Assembly (NCBI RefSeq): GCF_900104065.1
Contig: NZ_FNLC01000002.1
Span: 1-64,000, forward strand
DNA: 64,000 nt
Reading direction: 5' to 3'
Origin: Natronobacterium texcoconense
GTDB lineage: Archaea > Halobacteriota > Halobacteria > Halobacteriales > Natrialbaceae
Made by a program: the position numbers and the translations under genes. Below, piece after piece: positions 11,207 to 44,146 of the stretch. Below the pieces are notes generated by a model. That model did no database searches and was not told the origin of the DNA. It saw only the letters and a program-made list of their open reading frames with translations. Each line of letters opens with the position of its first letter. The stretch's first letter is position 1.

Positions 11207-13930
11207 ATGCAAAGACGTGAAATGATCGTCGGAAGCGGTACCGTCGCAACCTTTGCCCTCACCGGCTATGCCGGCGCAACGACGGACGACGCTGACGACG
11301 ACGGTGAGACGACCCTGTCGTCTGACCTCGAGTCCGTTCTCGAACTGGTCCCCGCAGAATCGACCCTCGATGCGAGCTATCAGCGACTCCAGTACGTCCA
11401 CGTCGAGAATACTGACGACGAACTCGACCACCAGACGCGGCGTACTCTCGACGATCTAGAGGAGGTCGATCCCGACACGGTATCGGACGTGATCTCGGTT
11501 GTTGCCGACGACGGCCGCGTTCGACTTAGTGCCGTCACTGGCTCGTTCGATCGGCCCGACATCGGCGGAAGCGAGGAAGACGACAACTGGCTGGTCGGCG
11601 ACCTCGACGGCGAGGACGCGTTCGCGGCCGCGGACGGAAAGATGATCGTCGCCTCCGGTGAAGATGCGAACGAGGTCGTCCAGACGGCGGTCGACGCCGT
11701 CCACGGTGACGCCGACTCGATCCTGGCCAGCCCCGAAGAAACCGAGCCGGTATTCGAGCGACTCGAGTCGATGGAGTACGTGACGTTCTTCCCGAACGTC
11801 GAGGACTACGCCTACTTCGAGTTCGACGGCGAGGTGTCGTCGTTCGCTGTCGGATTCCAGCAACCCCCGATGGCGCTTTCGGGCACGACGGAAAACGAGT
11901 ACGTCGTCGCAGCCGAGTCGACCGTCGACGACGACTGGCTCCTCGAACGGATCGAGCGAATCGAACAGGGGCAGTTCGTCGAGACGACGGTCGACCGTTC
12001 GGACGGGTTCGTCCACGTCGAGGCAGTCGTCGACCAGCCGCCCGAACGCGACCGCGATGCGGCACCCGACGCGAGCGTCCGCGCTCGAGCCGACGCCGAC
12101 GAGGGGGTCGTGACGTTCGAACATGCCGACGGCGAAACGATCGATACCGAGAATCTCGAAGTGTGGAAAGACGGCGAACTCGCAGACGACCAGCCTGCCG
12201 ACGACCACGTGACGTTCGCCGAAGGCGATCGCTTCGAACTCGAGACGGGACCGCTCGCAGACGTCGGCCTTCGCTGGTTCGACGAGAGCGAGGACGTCTA
12301 TTACTACTACGATACGGCCCTCGTCGGGCGCAACTCGTTCGAGACGAGCCACGACATCGACGACGACACAGTAGAGATCACCTACGTCGGCGAACTCGAG
12401 GCCGACCCCGCCCGTCTCGAACTCGTTCATCGGGACGACGAGCGAACCGACCTCGAGCGAAGGACTCTCGATGACGTCCTGGAATCGCTCACGACGGGCG
12501 ACTCGATCACTGTCGACGACGTCACGCTCGGCGACCGCGTCTCGCTCGAGCTTTCGGTTCCGGCTAACCCGAACCGGGGCCAGCGGTCGTTGGCCAGACA
12601 CCGCGTTCGACCGCCGCGAATGTTCATCAGCCGTCGTGAATCCGGTGTCGTGGCACGGTACCACGACGATCAAGACCGCGACGCGGACGAGTTCCGCGTG
12701 CTCGTCGACGACGAGACAGCATCCGTACAGTTTACCGACGAGACCGACACCCTCTCGGCGGGTGACGAGATCGAACTCGGTGACGTTTCACACGGCTCGA
12801 CCGTCACCATCGAGTGGCTCGAGCCGGACGAGCCGACTGTCATCGAGGAGACGGTCGTTTATCCCTACAGTCGCGTCGACATGACCTACGACGACGCGTC
12901 GGGAACGGTGACGGTCGACTACGAGGACGGTGACGAGATCGATGCCGACGACCTCGAGCTACGGATCGACGACGAACCGGCGGCCGACCAGCCGGCCGAC
13001 GAGTACGACACCTTCGAGCCCGGCGACGAACTCACGACTGCCGTCGATCCGTTCGCGACGGCCGAATTCGTCTGGGAGGGTCCCGACGACACCGAACACC
13101 GGTTCGGCCAGGTCATCGCCGGTCGAGAGTCGCTCGATGCCGCGTACGATCCTGACGCCGAAACCGTCGAGCTCGTCTACACGGGCGAGCAGTCTGCCGA
13201 CCCCGAGTCCCTGTCGGTCGATCGACGTGACGACGTCAGCTCGGAGGACGACGAGAACCTGTTCGCACAGGAATACGACACGCTGACTACCGGAGACAGC
13301 GTCGTCATCGAAGACGTCGGCCTCGAGGAGCGGATCACTGTCATGCTGGTACAGGAGGGAGAGAACCACGTCTCGCGCCGGTCTATCTTCCGGTTCAGGC
13401 CGGAACCCCAATGGGCGTTTACGTTTTCCGACCGGGACGACGGTCTCGTCGCCGTCTATCGCGAGGAGTCCGATCGTGACGCCGCCAACTTCGAACTGCT
13501 CGCCGATGGCGAGCCAGCCGACGTGCAGCCGTCGGATCGATACGACACGCTGACGCGAGGTGACGAACTCGCGGTCGGCGAGTTCGAGGCAGGTACCGAA
13601 CTCGTCATCCAGTGGATCGTTCCCGACGAGCCCCGGGAGATCCGTGACCACGTCGTCGTCCCGGAAGCCGAGTTCGAGTTCGAATACCACTCGGACGACG
13701 AGGAAGTTACTGTCGAGCACGCAGGCGGCGACGAAATCGCCGCCAGCGAACTGGGCGTGATCGTCGAACCGACCAGTGCCGAGCCGAGTGGCTGGGACGA
13801 GGACGGGATGGTCACCGAGGGCGATTCCACGACGGTCGACGCCGAACCTGAAGGCGGTCGTGACCCGATCGGAGTCGCGGTCGTCTTCCGAGAGCAGAAC
13901 CTGATCGACCGCGAACGGATCGAGGACTAA
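11207..13930 (+). CDS. Large secreted protein with seven tandem beta domains
   Basis: 907 residues, extremely acidic. The N-terminus (MQRREMIVGSGTVATFALTG) is a Tat-like or Sec-like signal. Residues about 40-290 form a unique domain with no match I know. From about 298 to 900 there are seven copies of an 80-90-residue unit, each with the core pattern V-x-hydrophobic, D-x-L-x-hydrophobic, a DTL-x-x-GD turn and a closing strand ending near W or L. Units 1, 4 and 7 resemble each other (EHADGETIDTENLEV, DYEDGDEIDADDLEL, EHAGGDEIAASELGV), as do 2 and 5 and also 3 and 6, giving ABC-ABC-A. The unit recalls the C-terminal domain of archaeal type IV pilins, but this is inference. It is probably a cell-surface protein. 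Preceded by AT-rich promoter DNA. Confidence 0.8.
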   Translation: MQRREMIVGSGTVATFALTGYAGATTDDADDDGETTLSSDLESVLELVPAESTLDASYQRLQYVHVENTDDELDHQTRRTLDDLEEVDPDTVSDVISVVADDGRVRLSAVTGSFDRPDIGGSEEDDNWLVGDLDGEDAFAAADGKMIVASGEDANEVVQTAVDAVHGDADSILASPEETEPVFERLESMEYVTFFPNVEDYAYFEFDGEVSSFAVGFQQPPMALSGTTENEYVVAAESTVDDDWLLERIERIEQGQFVETTVDRSDGFVHVEAVVDQPPERDRDAAPDASVRARADADEGVVTFEHADGETIDTENLEVWKDGELADDQPADDHVTFAEGDRFELETGPLADVGLRWFDESEDVYYYYDTALVGRNSFETSHDIDDDTVEITYVGELEADPARLELVHRDDERTDLERRTLDDVLESLTTGDSITVDDVTLGDRVSLELSVPANPNRGQRSLARHRVRPPRMFISRRESGVVARYHDDQDRDADEFRVLVDDETASVQFTDETDTLSAGDEIELGDVSHGSTVTIEWLEPDEPTVIEETVVYPYSRVDMTYDDASGTVTVDYEDGDEIDADDLELRIDDEPAADQPADEYDTFEPGDELTTAVDPFATAEFVWEGPDDTEHRFGQVIAGRESLDAAYDPDAETVELVYTGEQSADPESLSVDRRDDVSSEDDENLFAQEYDTLTTGDSVVIEDVGLEERITVMLVQEGENHVSRRSIFRFRPEPQWAFTFSDRDDGLVAVYREESDRDAANFELLADGEPADVQPSDRYDTLTRGDELAVGEFEAGTELVIQWIVPDEPREIRDHVVVPEAEFEFEYHSDDEEVTVEHAGGDEIAASELGVIVEPTSAEPSGWDEDGMVTEGDSTTVDAEPEGGRDPIGVAVVFREQNLIDRERIED

Positions 13931-40645: not shown

Positions 40646-42166
40646 TTACGATGCAGCCCAGACGTTCGTCGCAGCGACCGAGGCGAACTGGACGTTCTCG
40701 TTCTCCTGGATCGCTAGCTGGGCAGCGTCGGCGCTGTCGCCGTTCTCGGCGATGGCGACGGCGGCCTGCTGTTCGTTGATGTTCTGCTGGTTGACGAACT
40801 GGACCTGCTCGATCTGGGCGCTCGCGTGCTGTTCGACGTCGTTGGTCTGGGTGGCGTCGGAGTCGTAGGCGATTCCTTCGAAGCCGTCGACCTCGTCACC
40901 GCCGAGGTTCACGCTGGTGGTCTCGGAGGCGATGACGCCGTCCTGGACGTGACCGGGGCCGGCGTAGACGTTCAGCGCCTCGGCGAAGCCGACCTGGGCG
41001 TTGATGTTCTGCTGGTAGGACAGCTGGATCGCGGTCGCTTCGCTACCGTTGGTCGCGTACGCCAGCGCGGTGTTTTGCAGGTTGACGTTCATCTGCTCGA
41101 CCTCCTGGCTCTGGGTCACTTCGGAGGTCGCAGTCTGGACGCTGTCACCCTTCTTGTGGTGGTCTTTGTCCTTGTCACCGTGCAGGTTCTCGAGCTTTTG
41201 TTCGGTCTGGACGATGCCGTTGTCGCCGTCGAAGCCGGCAGTCGCGACGTTCATGCCCGGCATCGCGTCGATGACGTTCGAGGCGTCAGCCTCACCGATC
41301 TGCTGGTTGAGGTTGGTCTGTTCGGTGAACTGGAGCGCGGTCGCCGTACTGCCGTTGCCGACGGCGATCGCGACGGCGCCGTCCTGCTCGTTGACGTTCA
41401 TCTGGTCACCTTCCTGTCCCTGCGCGACCGACGCGCTCGCGGACTGATCGGTGAACTCGCCACCGGAGTAGACGTTAGTTGCGTTAGCGACGCCCTGTTG
41501 CAGGTTCTGGTTTGCCTGCTGGGACTGCTGCAGGGCGATCGCTTCGCTCTCGTTTTCGGCGATCGCGAAGGCAACGTTCTGTTCGTTGTAGTTCAGCTGG
41601 CCGACTTCCTGGACCTGGGTCACTTCGGCGTCGGCAGCCTGGTCAGGGTCGACGTCTGCCTTGTCACCTTTCTTGTCCGCGATGCCCCAGCCGTCGAAGT
41701 GCTTGCCGTCGCCGTTACCCATGACGACGAACACGTTACCGACGTCCTCGAACTCCGTGGTCTGGACGTTCGAGGCCGACGCGTCACCGAACTGGATGGC
41801 GTCGTTCTGCTGGGTCGACTCCTGGATCGCGGTGGCTTCACCGCCGTCGATCGTGATCGCAGTCGCGTTCGCCTGCTGGTTGATGTTTACCTGATCGACG
41901 TCCTGGTACTGCGTGACCTCAGCGTCGACCTCCTGTGCTGCATCGGACGCGTGCGCTTCGATGTACTCCTCGAGCGTCATGTCGCCGAGATCGGCTCCGA
42001 AGACCAGGTAGAGGTCTTCACCGTTCTCGAGCGCGTGGACTGACTCTGCCGTGGCGTCGTCGCCGGCAGCAACTGCCGGTGCGCCACCGGCTACCATCGC
42101 TAAGGCGACTATACAGGCAATAAGAACCGTCGTACACTGTGAACGTATCGTCGTCGTGTTGGTCAT
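40646..42166 (-). CDS. Secreted protein with five Q/N-rich curlin-like repeats
   Basis: 506 residues from the ATG at 42164-42166. Residues 9-34 are a Sec signal (VLIACIVALAMVAGG, APAVAA). After a short unique domain (ENGEDLYLVFGADLGDMTLE) come five repeats of about 57 residues at roughly 82-136, 180-238, 243-300, 348-404 and 448-506. Each follows the pattern VTQ-x-Q-x-V-x-Q-x-NIN-x-Q, A-x-AIA-x-NGSEATA-x-Q, Q-x-N-x-N-x-Q, A-x-NVY. Regular Q, N and A spacing resembles the curlin repeat of bacterial amyloid fibres. Linkers are histidine/lysine- or glycine-rich. Two further secreted Q/N-repeat proteins are divergent. It is probably extracellular; amyloid or fibre formation is inferred. Confidence 0.75.
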   Translation of the reverse strand: MTNTTTIRSQCTTVLIACIVALAMVAGGAPAVAAGDDATAESVHALENGEDLYLVFGADLGDMTLEEYIEAHASDAAQEVDAEVTQYQDVDQVNINQQANATAITIDGGEATAIQESTQQNDAIQFGDASASNVQTTEFEDVGNVFVVMGNGDGKHFDGWGIADKKGDKADVDPDQAADAEVTQVQEVGQLNYNEQNVAFAIAENESEAIALQQSQQANQNLQQGVANATNVYSGGEFTDQSASASVAQGQEGDQMNVNEQDGAVAIAVGNGSTATALQFTEQTNLNQQIGEADASNVIDAMPGMNVATAGFDGDNGIVQTEQKLENLHGDKDKDHHKKGDSVQTATSEVTQSQEVEQMNVNLQNTALAYATNGSEATAIQLSYQQNINAQVGFAEALNVYAGPGHVQDGVIASETTSVNLGGDEVDGFEGIAYDSDATQTNDVEQHASAQIEQVQFVNQQNINEQQAAVAIAENGDSADAAQLAIQENENVQFASVAATNVWAAS

Positions 42167-42836
42167 GATTCGTTTGACTTGAGCCGTGAGAGTCTTTTGT
42201 TTCTGCATCTCCACGGCGTGAACCTTCGTATCCCGATGACAGACTTTGTTATCTGTCAGTTGATTCGGATATGATGCGGCCTACTCGAGACGGCTCGAGT
42301 GCGGCAACTTCGAAAGCGGAAACTTCGAATTACAGGCGGCGAATACGCGGTCTGTGGTGTGTGGTATCAATGAACAAGAAATGCGGCGAGTAGCGTTCGC
42401 GAACTCGATCGGCCAGTTGTATCGAGGGCTGTGAGTATCACAGTCGTCAACGGGTGCCTGTTGTTGGTGGGTTGAACACTACCCGGTCTCTACTCGGTAT
42501 TTCGGGGACGTGATGGAGCAATGAATCGACGTAACTGGGCAAAACAACACAATAGGATCGTCGTACCGGCGACGGAAGTTCGTTCGTCGCCAGTGGATTC
42601 TCTCGGAAAACAACTAAATTGTAGCCTCAACGCCTCTAATCAGGTAATTCCCTCCGAAACCGTTCTTCGGGTTGAAGTAGGTCTCCGTGATGAGTGGCGA
42701 TTGGGCAACGCGTCACAGCGGGAGTTGCAGGGGAGATGGCGGAGCCTACCCCGACGAGCTGTAGCTCTCTCAGGGCTCAGCTCTGTTACGGCCCGCCCGC
42801 GTGATGCGTGCCTAATAGATAATCCAAAATTCAACT
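42167..42836. other. Long divergent intergenic region between secreted-protein genes
   Basis: About 670 bases of lower-than-average G+C separate the 506-residue gene from the plus-strand 184-residue gene. It contains the palindromes described at 42237-42300, a direct repeat of aacttcgaa near 42310-42335, and an AT-rich box (cctaatagataat, about 42810-42822) before the downstream ATG. One frame of 169 codons exists but is basic, cysteine-rich and unlike any haloarchaeal gene, so I do not annotate it. Confidence 0.55.
42237..42300 (-). promoter_or_regulatory. Palindromic sites in the promoter of the curlin-like gene
   Basis: Two inverted repeats are visible: tgacaga (42237-42243) with tctgtca (42252-42258), and actcgag (42283-42289) with ctcgagt (42294-42300). 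A TATA-like atcatatcc lies between them at about 42266-42274 on the minus strand, so the first palindrome would overlap the transcription start and the second the BRE region, as operators often do. Confidence 0.45.
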
Positions 42837-43391
42837 ATGAAGCGCGCACTCACACTCGCACTGGTAGTAGCAGTCGTCGGCGGCCTCACGTTCATGGGGC
42901 TCGCTGGAACAGCAGCGGCACACGACTACGACAAGAACGGCGTCGCCGAAGAGCAGGTCGCCGCAGACGTCCCGCAGGTCCAGATCGGCCAGGCTGCCGA
43001 TGCGTCGGTGAACCAGGCCCAGGACGGTAACCAGGTGAACCTCAACAACCAGGAAGCCGGTATCGAGCAGTCCGCTGACGCGAACGCTGGCGATGGTGGC
43101 GAAGTTGTCATTGAAGCGCCGGATGATGCTGACGAAAACGCTACTGACGATAATAACACCAACACTGCTGGTGCTGCACAGGCACCTGTCAACCCAGGAC
43201 CGGTCTTCGGTGACGAGGTCGGTGACAACGTGACTATCGACGCACCTGTCGATACGACTATCACTGCTGACGGTGGTGACGCTACGGTCGAGAACGTGAC
43301 CCAGAATGCGGATATCACCCAGAGCGCTGAGCAGAGCAACACTGCTACCCAGAACGGCGAAGCCTCTGCCTTCAACCTCATCGGCAGCTAA
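42837..43391 (+). CDS. Secreted Q/N-rich repeat protein (companion 1)
   Basis: 184 residues with a Sec signal (MKRALTLALVVAVVGGLTFM through AGTAAA). The mature part has a Q/N block near the start (SVNQAQDGNQVNLNNQEAGI, then EQSADANA), an acidic N/D/A-rich middle with unusually A/T-ending codons, and a second block at the end (VENVTQNADITQSAEQSNTA). The blocks share the Q-x5-N-x-N-x-Q rhythm of the 506-residue protein. By analogy with curli systems it could be a minor subunit or nucleator, but no assignment is possible from sequence alone. Confidence 0.68.
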   Translation: MKRALTLALVVAVVGGLTFMGLAGTAAAHDYDKNGVAEEQVAADVPQVQIGQAADASVNQAQDGNQVNLNNQEAGIEQSADANAGDGGEVVIEAPDDADENATDDNNTNTAGAAQAPVNPGPVFGDEVGDNVTIDAPVDTTITADGGDATVENVTQNADITQSAEQSNTATQNGEASAFNLIGS

Positions 43392-43666
43392 TTGCAGTAG
43401 CCGATAGCAACAGAGCAGAACGAATTTCACTTTTTCTTCGAGAAACTGAAACGGGTAGACTCGAGTCCGTTCACCGAACGGTCCGAAGACGGTCCAATAT
43501 TGGCTATCGATAGTAGTCGCTACGGTCGTTCGCCGGTCTGATTACTCCGTATCGAACGAACATCGCCGTTTCAAAGTCGGTGCTTACCGACGAAACAGTT
43601 CTCGGCGTTCAAATAGCAGGGTGTGAAGACCGAAGATAGCGGCCGAACCGAACAATCGATCAACTC

Positions 43667-44146
43667 ATGAAACGAATCGCACTCGGCGTCATCGCACTCG
43701 TCTGTCTGGCTGCTATCGTCGGCGCCGGCATCGGTGGTGGGGTGGGAGACGAGACGACCGACGACGCCGAGACAGACGAGGACACGTCCATGTGGAACGT
43801 ACTGATCAACATCACGAGCAGCGACGACGATGACGAGGTGACCGTCTCGAGCGACTCCGAGGTCGTCGTCTCGAACGAATCGGGCGAGAAACGGATCGTG
43901 ACGAACTCGAGTTCGAACGCGAGCATCTCGATCACGCAAAACGCGTCCGAGGCGGCCGAACAGAACGTATCGATCTCGCAATCGGCCTCGGCGGAGGGTG
44001 GCGACGCCGAGGTAACCGACGTCGACCAATCCGTCTCGGTGAGCCAGTCGACGTCCGTCTCGAGTTCGGGGGAAGACGGTAGTGACGGCGAAGATGGCTC
44101 GGTCAACGTATCGATCTCTACCGGCGACGACAGAGACGACGCGTAG
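43667..44146 (+). CDS. Secreted S/Q/N-repeat protein (companion 2)
   Basis: 159 residues with a signal-like N-terminus (MKRIALGVIALVCLAAIVGA). The mature region alternates short hydrophobic or serine residues with N and Q: SNASISITQNASEAAEQNVS, then ISQSASAEG and VDQSVSVSQSTSVSSS. This strict every-second-residue pattern suggests beta strands. It follows companion 1 on the same strand after 275 bases. The short, regular beta repeats support the idea of a fibre or surface-layer component. No family recognised. Confidence 0.65.
   Translation: MKRIALGVIALVCLAAIVGAGIGGGVGDETTDDAETDEDTSMWNVLINITSSDDDDEVTVSSDSEVVVSNESGEKRIVTNSSSNASISITQNASEAAEQNVSISQSASAEGGDAEVTDVDQSVSVSQSTSVSSSGEDGSDGEDGSVNVSISTGDDRDDA

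Follow-up and report, generated by a model that had tools for sequence, protein, structure and literature searches.

Secreted Q/N-ladder repeat proteins encoded as a conserved divergent gene pair in haloarchaea: candidate subunits of an extracellular amyloid-like fibre

Two bacterial systems are among the closest known to the proteins discussed here. The curli subunit CsgA is built of strand-arc-strand repeats of about 23 residues that carry N-x-psi-x-psi-x-Q motifs (PMC10192328). FapC of Pseudomonas has long imperfect repeats, each forming one cross-beta layer, which are connected by linkers whose length varies widely; it contains conserved Asn/Gln networks and is accompanied by a related nucleator, FapB (PMC12392863, PMC12822426). 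Archaeal functional amyloids in the cited literature are the sheath (SH) proteins of a few methanogens and relatives, with a core of two six-stranded antiparallel sheets assembled into cell-encircling hoops (PMC10593813, PMC11576556). Congo red and thioflavin T both bind to biofilms of Haloferax volcanii, and for the gene responsible there is no firm assignment but only a distant guess (PMC4180959). This report concerns a gene pair, P1 and P2, in Natronobacterium texcoconense, located in the 64,000-nucleotide window formed by positions 1 to 64,000 of contig NZ_FNLC01000002.1.

P1 and P2 are a real, conserved two-gene secreted system of haloarchaea. They are proposed, with a probability of roughly 0.55, to be the subunits of an extracellular amyloid-like fibre (cross-beta, beta-solenoid) in Natrialbaceae and a few other haloarchaea. 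The original prediction described three neighbouring secreted proteins with curlin-like glutamine/asparagine (Q/N) repeats, one of 506 residues with five repeats and two smaller ones divergent from it, and this arrangement was confirmed from the sequence: P2 is divergent from P1, and the third gene, P3, lies downstream of P2. Freed of the curlin label, the broader proposal of a fibre- or amyloid-forming archaeal protein remains a candidate after every test run here.

The P1 repeats and their predicted fold

As cut, the five P1 repeats span 58-61 residues, and they share pairwise identities of 40-58% (mean 48%), with the consensus Q.A.AeVtQ.QeV.Q.N.NeQ..A.AIA.NGseAtA.Q.s.Q.N.N.Q.G.A.A.NV. Every other position is occupied by a Q, N or A that hardly varies. 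Lys, Arg, Cys and Pro do not occur within the five repeats. The motif Q.{3}Q.[NY].N.Q is found nine times in P1, against a mean of 0.01 and a maximum of 1 in shuffled sequences, and Q/N alternation at lag 2 and lag 4 exceeds that of 2000 shuffles (lag-2 autocorrelation, P=0 of 2000). In an alignment of 17 species, the share of Q/N residues that are invariant is 70% in the repeats versus 8% in the linkers, and that of A residues 50% versus 6%. Conservation itself alternates at lag 2, with a mean autocorrelation of 0.30 versus 0.18 for the largest of 5000 shuffles. On the sequence, this alternating conservation has the look of beta-strands with one conserved inward face. The linkers differ in length among species and carry conserved non-repeat motifs (DLYLVFGAD..MTLEEYI, VMGNGDGK.FDGWG and GMNVATAG).

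In the AlphaFold2 model of mature P1, the repeats appear as ten all-beta segments of 26-29 residues each, with block-mean predicted local distance difference test (pLDDT) values of about 60-89, mostly 70-89, and the linkers are disordered (pLDDT <50). Alignment of the model to CsgA with VIA-align covers 97 residues at 2.3 Å (Z 3.9); the aligned model residues span 50-465, a spread that points to stacking of the repeats within the model. An all-beta, stacked fold of P1 is therefore likely as modelled. A Foldseek search of the model against 350,542 PDB chains listed three matches, the best being FapC (E 0.064, probability 0.01, not significant), followed by CsgA of Pontibacter korlensis (E 1.9) and an ice-binding protein (E 9.9); a viral structure library returned no significant match. 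A separate model of repeats 2-3 folded alone had a pLDDT of only 45.5 and was dropped from the fold searches because of this low confidence.

P1 could instead be a beta-solenoid surface protein or adhesin, monomeric or capped, that does not polymerise and uses its loops to bind a partner or surface, with P2 as a related small ligand or accessory. Five repeats would suffice for a self-contained solenoid, the conserved linker motifs look like functional loops, some homologues end in the PGF-CTERM signal typical of surface glycoproteins, and one P1 type has a twin-arginine-like signal. Yet conservation sits in the Q/N/A ladder and not at exposed positions, as in amyloid subunits; AlphaFold2 predicts no capping domain before or after the stacked repeats; and the conserved single-repeat partner described below is hard to account for with a plain adhesin. 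The adhesin explanation is considered unlikely.

P2, P3 and the conservation of the pair

The relation of the smaller proteins to P1 was assessed with a hidden Markov model (HMM) built from 85 P1 repeats, with 520 shuffled P2-type proteins as the control. P2 matches this model in two half-repeats separated by an insert of ~74 residues, the first half scoring 18.6 bits and the second 10.1 bits, against 8.8 for the best shuffle, and the majority of other P2-type proteins likewise outscore the shuffles. When the profiles of P1 and the two P2 types were compared, the probabilities were 95% and 91%. Judged by these matches, P2 is a one-repeat version of P1, homologous to the P1 repeats.

P1 homologues are present in 89 of 391 genomes of the haloarchaeal class at E<=0.001, mostly in Natrialbaceae with a few in three other families, and P2 profile matches are found in 85 genomes. 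Among the P2 matches listed, all 77 of 77 genomes also hold P1 (hypergeometric P about 5e-74, uncorrected for shared ancestry). The locus count comprised 93 P1 loci from 84 of the 391 genomes; 63 of these are accompanied within 6 kb by one to three P2 genes, all divergent, and the nearest P2 start lies a median of 685 bp from the P1 start (interquartile range 642-724). Counted by genome, 63 of the 84 hold such a divergent P2. A P2-type gene stands upstream of P1 in 15/15 named loci with enough flank. A CDC48 gene adjoins the pair in most named loci; one locus (L033) differs in having other neighbours upstream, and the pair is intact there, indicating that P1 and P2 stay together even where synteny breaks. 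By repeat HMM and divergent pairing, P2 is a linked gene for a putative smaller subunit with homologous repeats, for which a nucleating role may be envisaged.

Some P1-related sequences fall outside this pattern. A divergent P1 type, represented by L020:1324-2943(+) and similar loci, has no P2 nearby; the L020 protein has a twin-arginine-like start instead of a Sec signal and a lysine-rich C-terminal tail, and a folded-export route for such P1 proteins would bear on the timing of repeat folding. Open frames of ~470-1120 residues from two other haloarchaeal families (G088, G121, G186, G237 and G368) match the P1 profile at their N-terminal part only, about positions 1-100, and may, from these matches, share a separate mobile N-terminal domain.

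The signal peptides of P2-type proteins are nearly identical and their mature parts diverged. Near-constant signals, fast-changing mature parts and one to three copies per locus would also be expected if P2-type proteins were secreted effectors or bacteriocin-like peptides, with P1 as a receptor, carrier or immunity factor. The P2 mature parts nevertheless retain Q/N repeat halves homologous to P1, and no toxin-like domain, export gene or immunity gene was identified, making this explanation highly improbable.

P3 does not share the relation of P2 to P1. It has no match to the repeat HMM (-1.2 bits) and a Q+N content of 10%, its serine residues alternate at lag 2 (P=0.0004) and its hydrophobic residues also alternate significantly. 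The only clear homologue, at the same place, is in one congener, a sister species, and P3 was rejected as a third conserved subunit. The suggestion that both small proteins follow the rhythm of P1 consequently applies to P2 down to the details and to P3 in a loose sense only, and of the supposed three-gene conserved neighbourhood, the P1/P2 pair was upheld but P3 was not.

Comparison with curli, FapC and sheath proteins

Like CsgA and CsgB (PMC10192328, PMC3521004), P1 and P2 combine a multi-repeat, Sec-exported subunit with a small partner, and have N/Q and small hydrophobic core positions at every second residue; the P1 unit, however, is 58-60 residues long with the motif Q..V.Q.N.N.Q..A.A, versus about 23 residues in CsgA. 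An archaeal branch of the curli family, diverged from CsgA/CsgB, would explain the Sec-secreted Q/N repeats, the beta alternation and the arrangement of subunit and partner, and would agree with the weak structural match to CsgA and with the real curlin of a related genus described below. Against it, the curlin model PF07012 matches neither the genome nor P1-P3, although the same model gives E 1e-36 on a haloarchaeal curlin; hhalign of P1 with that curlin has a probability of 0.5%, the P1-repeat HMM scores it at -11 bits, and in hhalign of P2 the signal peptide alone is aligned. CsgG (PF03783) is missing genome-wide, in a search that was positive in four control genomes, which bears out the CsgG part of the original prediction that no csgEFG-like genes are nearby. 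Membership of P1 in the curlin family was rejected on the PF07012, hhalign, HMM, CsgG and repeat-length results, the curlin-like label given to the three proteins did not hold, and an origin as a divergent curli branch is very unlikely.

True curlins are nonetheless present in haloarchaea. A PF07012 search of the 391 genomes was positive in four, from four species of one Natrialbaceae genus, where the secreted proteins of 207-245 residues have 19-residue repeats (NDADVDQRNKAGVFQDGKY) and eight to ten Pfam curlin matches; the two proteins that were scanned gave E 1e-36 and 2e-45. By their sequence these are bona fide curlins, and contamination is unlikely, given four separate genomes and an acidic haloarchaeal composition. 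All four genomes also hold P1 homologues. In 2012 Dueholm and colleagues mentioned one archaeal protein, unnamed, with repeats like those of curli (PMC3521004); it may be the curlin of this genus.

The layout of P1 and P2, with imperfect repeats, variable linkers and a smaller partner, resembles FapC/FapB more closely than CsgA/CsgB. Shared with the Pseudomonas proteins are imperfect Q/N-rich repeats, variable disordered linkers, invariant Asn/Gln and a small related partner. FapC has three repeats versus five in P1; FapB almost always has three versus the one split repeat of P2; and the FapC host has an outer membrane, whereas the archaeal host of P1/P2 does not. Sequence homology of P1 to FapC was not detected: neither phmmer with P1 nor hmmsearch with the P1 profile returned FapC among PDB chains at E<=10, or any PDB-chain relative at E 0.1 or better. 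Pfam and NCBIfam gave chance-level matches only for P1-P3, and no family name was found for P1 or P2. Tested for membership, P1 and P2 belong to neither family; that they work like FapC or curli is what we infer.

With the SH proteins of Methanospirillum and Methanothrix, P1 would share the character of a secreted archaeal cross-beta surface polymer; it differs from them, by their descriptions, in being a repeat protein built on Q/N ladders whose single-repeat partner is encoded divergently. P1 can also be compared with PGF-CTERM archaeosortase substrates (TIGR04126, PF18204), as this signal is found at the C-terminus of five P1 homologues, four of which exceed the NCBIfam cut-off, but not in window P1, which would be released or matrix-bound.

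A model for assembly and its weighing

Both P1 and P2 start with a Sec-type signal, and P1 is an acidic chain that has no cysteine. In the proposed fibre, P1 would leave the cell through Sec, acidic and cysteine-free, and each imperfect repeat would fold into flat all-beta layers whose inward Q, N and A side chains line up in unbroken ladders. The repeats would stack on one another with the acidic linkers looping out, as in FapC, and exposed repeat edges would permit end-to-end stacking of P1 molecules. P2, with one repeat and a long split loop, would most likely nucleate, cap or limit the stacking, like FapB or CsgB. In some relatives, PGF-CTERM on the P1 homologue would allow archaeosortase anchoring to the cell surface. 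The product would be a cell-surface or matrix fibre formed after Sec export, probably serving adhesion, aggregation or the biofilm matrix. Fibre formation, stacking, polymerisation, amyloid character, the role of P2 and the biological function are the steps that we infer.

Several observations weigh against this fibre. The AlphaFold2 model of mature P1 has an overall mean pLDDT of 54.7 and a predicted template modelling score (pTM) of 0.50, the low confidence of repeats 2-3 folded alone points the same way, and AlphaFold2 is biased towards beta-solenoids when repeats are perfect (PMC11795689). As to the beta-solenoid fold proposed for checking at the outset, the repeats are modelled as all-beta at high local confidence, but the overall model is weak and the fold matches are not significant. 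Window P1 has no surface anchor, as Pfam and NCBIfam scans found no PGF-CTERM (C-terminal PGF motif, transmembrane helix and basic tail). Moreover, 30 of the 93 P1 loci have no adjacent P2, and seven P1 genomes have no P2 at all among the matches listed.

Control regions and neighbouring genes

Coordinates of the features are given in Table 1. The inverted repeat ACAGATAACAAAGTCTGT upstream of P1 is kept across genera. A ACAGATAACAAAGTCTGTCATC block with inverted arms (window 42235-42256, minus strand) is kept upstream of P1 in many genera, and the in-frame stretch MQKQKTLTAQVKRIM between this block and the P1 ATG is also conserved, and may reflect a true P1 start elsewhere or a leader function.

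The P2-leader 15-mer has a single match in the 4.0-Mb genome, even allowing one mismatch. In 23 distinct leaders, GGGCAACGCGYCACA and GTGATGCGTGCC make up an inverted repeat located 82-153 nt ahead of the P2 start; in the window the arms are GGGCAACGCGYCACA ... GTGATGCGTGCCT, with a variable loop between them. The window leader is predicted to fold strongly as RNA (z -3.9), covariation in the stem is weak (one pair with compensatory changes), and Rfam has no family for the leader. A DNA operator and a structured leader RNA are equally possible.

The three genes are flanked by a CDC48-type AAA ATPase gene on one side and by a region with a RadB-like gene on the other. Among named relatives, the closest to P1 are those of Halobiforma nitratireducens and H. 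haloterrestris (83-84% identity); in the former, a fragment like a zinc-ribbon transposase (L027:3975-4631, minus strand) adjoins the P2 gene. Elsewhere in the window (11207-13930, plus strand) is a 907-aa protein that starts with a twin-arginine-like signal and contains several units of ~200 residues repeated internally.

Table 1. Positions of P1, P2, P3 and associated features (window coordinates unless a locus is named)
Feature	Coordinates	Strand	Basis
P1, 506-aa secreted protein, five Q/N-ladder repeats (putative major fibre subunit)	40646..42166	-	
P1 start codon ATG	42166	-	
P1 signal peptide, Sec type, about 34 aa, end AVAA/GDD (putative cleavage site at the slash)	42065..42166	-	
P1 repeat 1	41762..41932	-	
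P1 repeat 2	41465..41641	-	
P1 repeat 3	41267..41446	-	
P1 repeat 4	40961..41137	-	
P1 repeat 5	40655..40831	-	
Inverted repeat ACAGATAACAAAGTCTGT upstream of P1, candidate operator or promoter element	42239..42256	-	
19-mer GATAACAAAGTCTRTCATC upstream of P1	42235-42253	-	
5' arm of P2-leader inverted repeat, GGGCAACGCGTCACA	42703..42717	+	
3' arm of P2-leader inverted repeat, GTGATGCGTGCCT	42801..42813	+	
P2, 184-aa secreted protein, one split P1-type repeat (putative nucleator, cap or minor subunit)	42837..43391	+	
P2 first half-repeat, mature residues 24-53	42990..43079	+	repeat HMM
P2 second half-repeat, mature residues 128-154	43302..43382	+	repeat HMM
P3, 159-aa secreted Ser-rich protein, alternating S/V; link to P1/P2 system uncertain	43667..44146	+	
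Haloarchaeal curlin gene	L044:1303-2037	-	
Haloarchaeal curlin gene	L045:994-1614	+	
Haloarchaeal curlin gene	L046:1360-2037	-	
Haloarchaeal curlin gene	L047:1078-1698	+	

Taken further, P1 and P2 might represent an independently evolved archaeal functional-amyloid system, with a five-repeat major subunit, one to three single-split-repeat partners and no bacterial homologue detected here, expressed from divergent promoters with conserved inverted-repeat control elements and assembling outside a monoderm cell without a dedicated secretion channel; this wider reading is tentative and is put at a little under even odds. P1/P2 provides a named, conserved two-gene amyloid candidate, present in most Natrialbaceae examined. 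If the proposal is true, the pair would have converged with FapC and curli on stacked imperfect Q/N repeats and a small related partner, and would constitute an amyloid solution that functions in molar salt and needs no pore in an outer membrane.

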